Shown in pieces: positions 1 through 37,591 of a stretch of DNA of 64,000 nucleotides. The DNA lies in assembly GCA_005938025.2 (NCBI GenBank), contig VCCI02000001.1:992001-1056000 (forward strand), read 5' to 3'. A program made the position numbers and the translations under genes. The DNA is from Inquilinus sp. KBS0705. Its GTDB lineage: Bacteria > Bacteroidota > Bacteroidia > Sphingobacteriales > Sphingobacteriaceae. Every line of letters starts with the position of its first letter. The first letter of the stretch is position 1. Under the pieces are notes generated by a model. That model was not told the DNA's origin. It saw only the letters and a program-made list of their open reading frames with translations, and made no database searches.

Positions 1-1166
<1,166 letters not shown>

Positions 1167-1170
1167 AGTA

Positions 1171-1281
1171 TCAACAGCAGCAACACATGCAAATACAGCC
1201 GGTAATATGGTTGTATGCAATGGTATTATCAGATAGGGGATACTGATTGTTTTGTTGAGCTAAGTAAGTTGTAATTTTCAT
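1171..1281 (-). CDS. Cys-rich leader ORF (36 aa) between SAM riboswitch and metY
   Basis: An uninterrupted 36-codon ORF begins at ATG (complement of 1279-1281) and ends at TGA (complement of 1171-1173). It starts MKITTYLAQQ and ends GCICMCCCC, so six of the last eight codons before the stop are cysteine (TGT/TGC) with one methionine among them. It starts about 20 nt downstream of the SAM-I aptamer and stops 115 nt before the metY start. A run of the codon for the relevant amino acid just before the stop, ahead of a biosynthetic gene, is the hallmark of an attenuation leader peptide. Poly-Cys leaders controlling sulfur genes are known from actinobacteria, but I know of no described Bacteroidota case. 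Alternatively it could be a metal-binding microprotein. Translation is not demonstrated. Confidence 0.7.
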   Translation of the reverse strand: MKITTYLAQQNNQYPLSDNTIAYNHITGCICMCCCC

Positions 1282-1302
1282 GATTAAAAATTTATATCCC
1301 CC

Positions 1303-1398
1303 GGTTAACTATTCTCCGGGACAGGAATTGGCACCTTCTCCACCTTGGAGGGTTGCCAGCGGGTTTTCGAGCCTGATCTCTCGCCGCTTCTTTATAAA
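1303..1398 (-). promoter_or_regulatory. SAM-I (S-box) riboswitch upstream of metY
   Basis: Read on the minus strand, this stretch contains the S-box core in order: GCGGCGAGAGATCAGGCTCG, then GAAAACCCGCTGGCAACC, a small CTCC/GGAG hairpin (CTCCAAGGTGGAG), then AAGGTGCCAATTCCTG. The GCAACC and GGTGCCAATTCC blocks are the most conserved parts of the SAM-I aptamer. SAM binding normally switches off methionine-biosynthesis genes; here the first downstream ORF is the Cys-rich leader, then metY. A CCCGG/CCGGG hairpin (1300-1304 with 1316-1320) overlaps the 3' end and is followed by a T-rich stretch, so it may be the expression platform. Boundaries are approximate. Confidence 0.9.
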
Positions 1399-1454: not shown

Positions 1455-1487
1455 CAAATATAGAGCAAAGGGAATTTAATTTCCAAA
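1455..1487 (-). promoter_or_regulatory. candidate promoter for riboswitch-metY transcript
   Basis: On the minus strand a perfect Bacteroidota -7 box TATATTTG lies at 1462-1455, with TTTG at 1487-1484, a 21-nt spacing against the usual 19. Transcription would start about 50 nt before the aptamer. Confidence 0.5.
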
Positions 1488-1540: not shown

Positions 1541-2602
1541 ATGAAATCCCTTTTTATTACAGTTTTAGCAGTATTAACACTTACATGTATTACAAATGCA
1601 CAACAGAAGAGTTTGTCAGTAATTTCTATTAACGGCATTGTTTTGTGTCAAACAAACATAGATGACCTAAAACAAAAATTTACTGATATAAAAGAGGCTG
1701 ATGTGGAAGAGATGGATTTGCAAAAGGGTTGTTATGGTCAGGATTCAAGATTTATAGCCGGTCATGGTTTTGCTTCCGAAAAACTGCCAGGAATGATTTT
1801 TCAAAAAAGCCAAACATCAGACTTTATAAGTAAAGTAAGATTAAACAAGCAGTTTATTGGAACACTACCTGACGGCAAAAAGATTGACATGAATAATTTT
1901 CTATTGAAAGATTTATTTCAATTATATCCACAATTTAAAAGTAAATGGGGGTCAAGAGGATGTTCTGATTATTGGAATTTTTCTAATGATACATTGTCTT
2001 TTTACGTAAGTATAGACAAATCAAAACACCCCCAATTTCCTATTGATGAAGATTATTATATGAATAAGCCAGTAATAGCTGTAGACATTATCTCATCATG
2101 TTACGAACAAGAAAACGGAGAGGATTTTGATATTGCTGTTATACCTGCCGATCCTTTATATTTCGTTGATAGTATACAGGTATATAAAGCAGATCTGATA
2201 AAATATAACCCACAAGATATAGCTATGGTGCGTGTCTACAAAGGTAATGATGCTATTAAAGTAGGTGGGCCTGAGGCTAAGAATGGCGTTATCTTCATTG
2301 AAACCAAAGCTTACGATAAAAAACGATACTGGAACTATTTTAAATCAAAATCAGCCGAATATGCTAAATTGGTGCCTTCGCCAATTGAAGACTCGAATGT
2401 GCAATACATTCTTAACAAAAAAGTATTAAAAGAAAATTACGAAGGCGATCTAGCCTCTATTAATGATGAGTTGTTTAAGGAAATACAAATTATTAACAAA
2501 GAGCAACTCATAAAAGAGTTTGGAGTAAAAAACAAAGATTATGGAATAATTATAATTTCAAACACCTCGCGTAATCTTAAAAATGGAAAAGATAAGTTTT
2601 AA
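1541..2602 (+). CDS. Secreted protein with TonB-plug-like segment, function unknown
   Basis: 353 residues. A Sec signal peptide is visible (MKSLFITVLAVLTLTCITNA, cleavage near A20). The only recognisable part is around residues 220-250, DIAMVRVYKGNDAIKVGGPEA followed by KNGVIFIETK, which resembles the plug-domain pattern (EVLKGpsA.yG..GaNGVIlItTK) found in many small Bacteroidota plug-like proteins. There is no beta-barrel, so it is not a receptor. The gene is visibly more AT-rich than its neighbours (third positions mostly A/T, AAA/AAT/ATT frequent), which hints at later arrival. It ends base-to-base against the convergent cystathionine synthase gene. I cannot assign a function. Confidence 0.75.
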   Translation: MKSLFITVLAVLTLTCITNAQQKSLSVISINGIVLCQTNIDDLKQKFTDIKEADVEEMDLQKGCYGQDSRFIAGHGFASEKLPGMIFQKSQTSDFISKVRLNKQFIGTLPDGKKIDMNNFLLKDLFQLYPQFKSKWGSRGCSDYWNFSNDTLSFYVSIDKSKHPQFPIDEDYYMNKPVIAVDIISSCYEQENGEDFDIAVIPADPLYFVDSIQVYKADLIKYNPQDIAMVRVYKGNDAIKVGGPEAKNGVIFIETKAYDKKRYWNYFKSKSAEYAKLVPSPIEDSNVQYILNKKVLKENYEGDLASINDELFKEIQIINKEQLIKEFGVKNKDYGIIIISNTSRNLKNGKDKF

Positions 2603-37226: not shown

Positions 37227-37373
37227 GTTGTGATTTGGTATTCGTGTAAAAAATAATGCAAACAAAGCATCATAGCACACCATGGAAAATACCAAATGAA
37301 AAACGCAGCCACCTGTTAAGAAGAGCATTCCACATTCAAGCTTCAGTCCACGAAAGCTATGAATAATTATAAT

Positions 37374-37553
37374 GCTGAGGCAGGTATTCTGACTTGCTCC
37401 CCTTTGTCCGGCCTTCCCATCCGTTGTTAAACAGACAGTGACCTTTGTAGAATGGACTACGGTTAATAGAGCTTACAGCTGCGGGACAGTTACAGATTTA
37501 CACTGTATTCCCTTTTAATCCAGGCGCCGAAAAAACCGGTGCCGGGAACCTAA
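37374..37553 (-). promoter_or_regulatory. Cobalamin (B12) riboswitch upstream of btuB
   Basis: Read on the minus strand: GGTTCCCGGCACCGG..., AAAAGGGAATACAGTGTAAA TC, CTGTCCCGCAGCTGTAAGC, GGAAGGCCGGAC, then CAAGTCAGAATACCTGCCTC. The GGGAA...GTGAAAATC-type block, CCCGCAGCTGTAA and the GTCAGAATACCTGCC box are the conserved B12 box. It lies 148 bp before the btuB start, so B12 is expected to repress btuB-DUF6580. Confidence 0.95.
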
Positions 37554-37560
37554 AGCGCTG

Positions 37561-37591
37561 CAAACATACAACAAGTATTAATAAGCACAAA
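37561..37591 (-). promoter_or_regulatory. btuB promoter
   Basis: On the minus strand TTTG (37591-37588), 19 nt, TATGTTTG (37568-37561): exact Bacteroidota consensus. The start point would be about 37554, immediately at the riboswitch 5' end. Confidence 0.85.

Follow-up and report, generated by a model that had tools for sequence, protein, structure and literature searches.

Cysteine leader peptides that lack terminators have been proposed for the cys and cbs operons of Actinobacteria (PMC1262725), and polycysteine uORFs of mycobacteria are reported to act as cysteine attenuators (Canestrari et al. 2020, as cited in PMC13236596). Riboswitches that control a uORF are known from Mycobacterium tuberculosis, namely the B12 switch of ppe2 (PMC11260477) and the Mbox (Mg) of pe20 (PMC12810186), both of which work through a translational platform on a small ORF ahead of the main gene, with Rho involved in the Mbox case. 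In Rhodobacterales, the leader of cysS carries two Cys codons (uORFC-8-2; PMC8632094).

The locus analyzed here, which lies in a 64,000-nucleotide stretch of DNA from Inquilinus sp. KBS0705 (Sphingobacteriaceae, Bacteroidota; hereafter the window), shares features with each of these systems. With the actinobacterial and mycobacterial leaders, the likeness consists in a short ORF with a Cys run at its stop codon, located before sulfur genes and without an obvious terminator, while the differences are the phylum, the SAM riboswitch that is placed on the start codon only here, the additional enrichment in Met and the target gene, metY. The M. tuberculosis uORFs are similar in their platform acting on a small ORF, but they respond to other ligands and have no reported reading of an amino acid through their codons; moreover, PPE2 is coupled by stop/start overlap, whereas metY leaders lie about 70–220 nt from metY. 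The uORFC-8-2 leader likewise has Cys codons located in a stem, but it has an intrinsic terminator, targets cysS, lacks a riboswitch and belongs to another phylum. The metY aptamer scores well above the gathering score of the SAM-I (S-box) family (RF00162), although, unlike in the usual members, the start codon likely to be regulated is that of the leader peptide and not that of the biosynthetic gene. The combination joins two known kinds of element, a riboswitch-controlled uORF and a Cys leader, and no report of it was found. The first-pass annotation, made from the sequence letters alone, knew of no Cys leader in Bacteroidota and of none nested behind a SAM riboswitch, and searches of an open-access library (subscription journals and preprints not included) gave no earlier report of either, which does not prove absence.

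On the minus strand of the window, the aptamer occupies positions 1289–1400 (RF00162, 72.3 bits, E 5.7e−15, gathering score 44.4), thus meeting the SAM-I family model, and its closing stem P1 is formed by GATTTATA paired with TATAAATT. It is followed by the leader ORF, 36 codons long (1171–1281, minus strand) and translated as MKITTYLAQQNNQYPLSDNTIAYNHITGCICMCCCC-stop, and by metY (1–1056, minus strand), which encodes an O-acetylhomoserine sulfhydrylase (TIGR01326, 546.8 bits, cut-off 495.1), starts at 1056, i.e., 114 nt from the leader stop, and runs off the window. This order of elements had been recognized in the first-pass annotation and was recovered here by the family models and the ORF list. 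The ORF translation likewise agrees with its count of six Cys and one Met among the last eight codons (TGT ATT TGC ATG TGT TGC TGC TGT, CICMCCCC; 1174–1197, minus strand). The leader precedes genes of sulfur amino acid metabolism, metY and then a MetX-like gene: metX is located downstream of metY, beyond the window edge, and at locus L031 the ORF after metY fits MetX best (TIGR01392), with a score below the curated cut-off. A candidate promoter of the Bacteroidota type was read from the sequence at 1455–1487 (minus strand), consisting of TTTG (1487–1484), 21 nt, and TATATTTG (1462–1455); based on the TTTG/TAnnTTTG consensus, which we take to be that of the phylum, transcription would start near 1448. 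The metY leader is adjoined by a divergent gene (1541–2602, plus strand) with only a weak and partial SusC/RagA-like match (residues 203–325), and a cobalamin riboswitch (93.2 bits) is present in the same window at 37362–37568 (minus strand).

The distance between riboswitch and leader had been put at about 20 nt, and this figure did not hold: the leader ATG is found 7 nt past the 3′ end of the aptamer, an informative number because the start codon consequently sits at the closing stem of the riboswitch. Among same-genus loci, the P1 to ATG distance was 5–11 nt in 124 of the 127 that could be measured, and exactly 7 nt in 98; the mode was 8–9 nt in other genera and the range 7–13 nt in other orders. 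The leader ATG is thus within reach of the riboswitch expression platform, as the definition of a riboswitch-controlled uORF demands. At 17 other SAM-riboswitch loci of these genomes, the next gene or Cys leader was at least 75 nt away in 16 cases and 35 nt in one. Since the distance from P1 is nearly fixed, the most likely role of the SAM riboswitch is to control whether the leader is translated, not to precede it as a separate element in series, as far as can be judged from sequence. The metY-type element looks like a translational riboswitch targeting the leader; this is inferred from the geometry, as are SAM binding and ligand-dependent translation of the uORF. The two-input control suggested earlier is thereby supported but refined: riboswitch and Cys leader are indeed paired, but with the ATG at P1 gating is probable and the serial order is not.

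For the comparison within the genus, metY was single copy in 134 of 149 genomes at the threshold applied, and 130 upstream regions were recovered, in which features were aligned by position. A leader ORF (28–42 codons) was present in the corresponding position in all 130, with stop codons TGA, TAA and TAG in 77, 50 and 3 cases, respectively. At least three Cys residues occurred within the last nine codons of 128/130 leaders, and none of 2440 ORFs from shuffled sequences reached this number in the tail. Cys occupied the last, second-, third- and fourth-last codon in 122, 122, 116 and 103 of the 130 leaders. Its share was 60% in the tail (last nine codons) vs. 1.1% in the body, and that of Met 14% vs. 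0.5%, with Met found in the tails of 125/130 leaders. Cys codons alternated between TGT and TGC, the choice being biased by position in the tail, and indels preserved the frame. Across 37 close, mutually independent pairs, the counts of substitutions at first, second and third codon positions were 16/12/29 for the tail and 114/87/102 for the body, two patterns that differ (chi-square p = 0.046). Drift of the body at every codon position, combined with a tail in which the amino acids are retained, fits the prediction for a leader peptide, and conservation in relatives, on which the first-pass annotation had staked its reading, was met in the tail, body, indels and Cys codon choice within the genus, and by the presence of the leader in many other Bacteroidota genera. 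By these comparative measures, we consider strong selection on the Cys/Met leader to be established. The Cys-leader attenuation proposed in that annotation is supported at the sequence level; stalling, direction and the output step remain inferred, without expression or translation data. Scans of the genome itself for Cys runs followed by a stop returned mostly out-of-frame noise. In three same-genus genomes, a 24-codon ORF ending in CCCC-stop was encountered 55–58 nt before a TonB-dependent receptor gene, without a SAM arrangement (G000:C1:871691-871705 (L246/L262), homologues L277 and L258), and it could possibly be another Cys leader.

Outside the genus, 32 of the 51 metY loci examined in other genera of the family had a Cys-tailed ORF 69–156 nt upstream of metY, with unrelated bodies. 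The arrangement was also found in Pedobacter, Splendidivirga, Haliscomenobacter, Chryseolinea serpens, Thermonema rossianum, several Hymenobacter and Pontibacter, as well as in Saprospiraceae, Microscillaceae and Cyclobacteriaceae, and tails in named genomes of other genera include MCCCCACCC, CCCCCC and MCCCCM. Because leader bodies are unrelated across genera, conservation is confined to the tail and the reading frame. The SAM-I aptamer was identified with Rfam in all 62 Cys-leader loci tested from other genomes, and RF00162 exceeded its gathering score in 20/20, 20/20, 12/20 and 18/20 loci of four batches; eight family loci without an aptamer match (L195–L202) had no Cys leader either. In Sphingobacterium, Algoriphagus, Cyclobacterium and Spirosoma, tails were weak or missing, and some loci had the aptamer and an ORF with no more than two Cys in the tail. 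A search at the order level yielded only members of the same family and added little. From these genome comparisons, the wide occurrence across the phylum of the aptamer, the leader and its fixed placement at P1 can be regarded as established. At four loci of one genus (L203–L206, genus g53), the Cys codons form a hairpin of their own (e.g., UGUAUGC/GCAUGCA), which apparently varies with compensation.

Between leader and metY, a helix (helix B; 1131–1164, minus strand) was recognized by its recurrence and covariation in relatives, with its 5′ arm just past the leader stop. In the window, CACGT (1163–1159) pairs with ACGTG (1135–1131) on the outside and TTTTC (1154–1150) with GAAAA (1141–1137) on the inside. 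Helix B was present in 116/130 relatives vs. 160/1300 shuffles, its 5′ arm begins a median of 7 nt (5–10 nt) past the leader stop, and pairing between arms of the same species is better than after permutation across species (0/60 permutations). The Cys codons are complementary to the 5′ arm, at −6.86 kcal/mol compared with −3.91 kcal/mol when the arms are shuffled. As long as the 3′ arm has not been transcribed, an upstream pairing of the 5′ arm is predicted with a probability of 0.62; once the 3′ arm is made and no ribosome is present, helix B is predicted to win with a probability of 0.72. A further helix (helix C, AGGATA-GTAC-TATCCT; 1105–1120, minus strand) was obtained from clade alignments with RNAalifold and is swapped for other stems in other clades, e.g., ACCGGT/ACCGGT. 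Clade-wise alignments were used because a single global RNAalifold run over the 130 post-leader regions gave no structure, owing to misalignment. Pairing of the leader with TACAG before metY was dropped as a candidate, as it exists in one clade only. Beyond the genus helix B is not shared, and other structures occur downstream of the leader. In the window, no intrinsic terminator was detected in the interval from the leader to metY, and across the genus terminators occurred at the rate of shuffled controls (6/130 loci vs. 21/650 shuffled sequences); the scan had limited sensitivity, since among 23 other SAM-riboswitch loci it picked up terminators in just 4. The trp-type criterion, i.e., a GC-rich hairpin and a U tract before the gene, was accordingly not met in the window, nor above the shuffled rate in the genus.

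Taken together, a SAM-gated Cys/Met leader-peptide attenuator of metY is the reading we consider probable. The aptamer, the leader, selection on its tail, the fixed spacing, the covarying helix B and the lack of an intrinsic terminator in the genus come directly from sequence comparison; SAM gating, stalling, direction and output are inferred. When SAM is plentiful, the aptamer would close P1, the 3′ strand of which spans roughly −15 to −8 relative to the leader start codon, ribosomes would not start on the leader, and metY would be off. When SAM is low, P1 would open and the leader would be translated up to its Cys/Met tail. With charged Cys-tRNA (or Met-tRNA) available, the leader would be completed and the terminating ribosome would cover the 5′ arm of helix B. 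Under a shortage of charged Cys-tRNA, the ribosome would stall a few codons earlier, on the Cys codons, leaving the 5′ arm free; helix B would then form and metY would be expressed. The output is most likely ribosome access to the metY start, with Rho-dependent termination almost as likely. Start access is favored by the complementarity of the helix B 3′ arm (ACGUGU) to the metY start region (ACAUGU), with a local pairing peak at the AUG. In the window itself this complementarity is short, no coevolution between species was detected for either competing pairing (Cys codons and 5′ arm, 3′ arm and metY start), and accessibility of the metY start codon modeled in the free, stalled and at-stop states differed only slightly. 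As helix B is predicted to win in the absence of a ribosome, the off state at high SAM requires either kinetic trapping or Rho.

Two other explanations would deny the leader its role as a peptide read in cis. The ORF might encode a functional Cys-rich small protein with a role in metal or thiol chemistry, co-regulated with metY, and Cys-rich protein termini can indeed bind metals, but this is general knowledge that no result here supports; we judge such a protein very improbable, as the body drifts without amino-acid constraint and is unrelated between genera, with only the terminal Cys/Met run being kept. Even harder to credit is a tail conserved for RNA structure, in which the reading frame would be incidental: the position bias in TGT/TGC choice and the complementarity of the Cys-codon segment to the helix B 5′ arm speak for it, but most tail changes fall at third codon positions, the Cys number varies by whole codons with the frame kept, and beyond the genus the helices differ yet the Cys tail stays. 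Neither a functional small protein nor an RNA kept purely for its structure would lead one to expect a drifting body with a kept tail.

The remaining alternatives concern how the parts are connected. The aptamer might act on a downstream platform of its own, the start of the leader ORF being there by coincidence, and such an order does exist at SusC-type loci (L004, L007 and L024), where a Cys-tailed ORF lies 96–123 nt after a SAM riboswitch and ahead of a SusC-like receptor gene, serially and unlike metY. At metY, however, the spacing hardly varies across genera and orders, there is no sign of another platform, and in one locus (L219, genus g58) that has no leader the ATG of metY itself takes the leader's place about 9 nt after the SAM aptamer, which makes serial independence unlikely. 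A transcriptional output, which would preserve the input logic, is possible but remains tentative. SAM-bound P1 would leave the leader untranslated, Rho would load on the pyrimidine-rich segment downstream of the stop and end transcription before metY, and in the on state the ribosome stalled in the tail and helix B would block Rho. The lack of an intrinsic terminator, the conserved U/C-rich sequence TTCCCTTTTCTCATTCCC that comes after the leader stop, and the reported combination of a translational platform with Rho in the mycobacterial Mbox controlling a uORF (PMC12810186) are in line with this version. Rut sites, on the other hand, are unrecognizable from sequence, the U/C-rich stretch also supplies helix B with its inner strand and loop, and a ribosome stalled on the Cys codons would leave it uncovered.

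If the SAM-gated attenuator is extended to the phylum, a two-input sulfur gate would be widespread in Bacteroidota, in which the SAM riboswitch permits translation of the leader and the Cys/Met codons of the leader decide on metY expression, a proposal to which we give even chances. In this two-input reading, sensing of a metabolite by RNA would be nested inside ribosomal sensing of tRNA charge, and metY would be on only if both SAM and charged Cys-tRNA are low. One short RNA would then read both the product end (SAM) and the supply end (Cys-tRNA) of the pathway, the two signals being combined since the riboswitch controls a leader peptide instead of a gene. Cys-codon leaders would be extended to Bacteroidota, and nature would provide a recurring example in which a riboswitch is nested with control by ribosome stalling. 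Bacteroidota rarely rely on Shine-Dalgarno pairing, and the metY leader would offer a tractable test of how they build translational switches.
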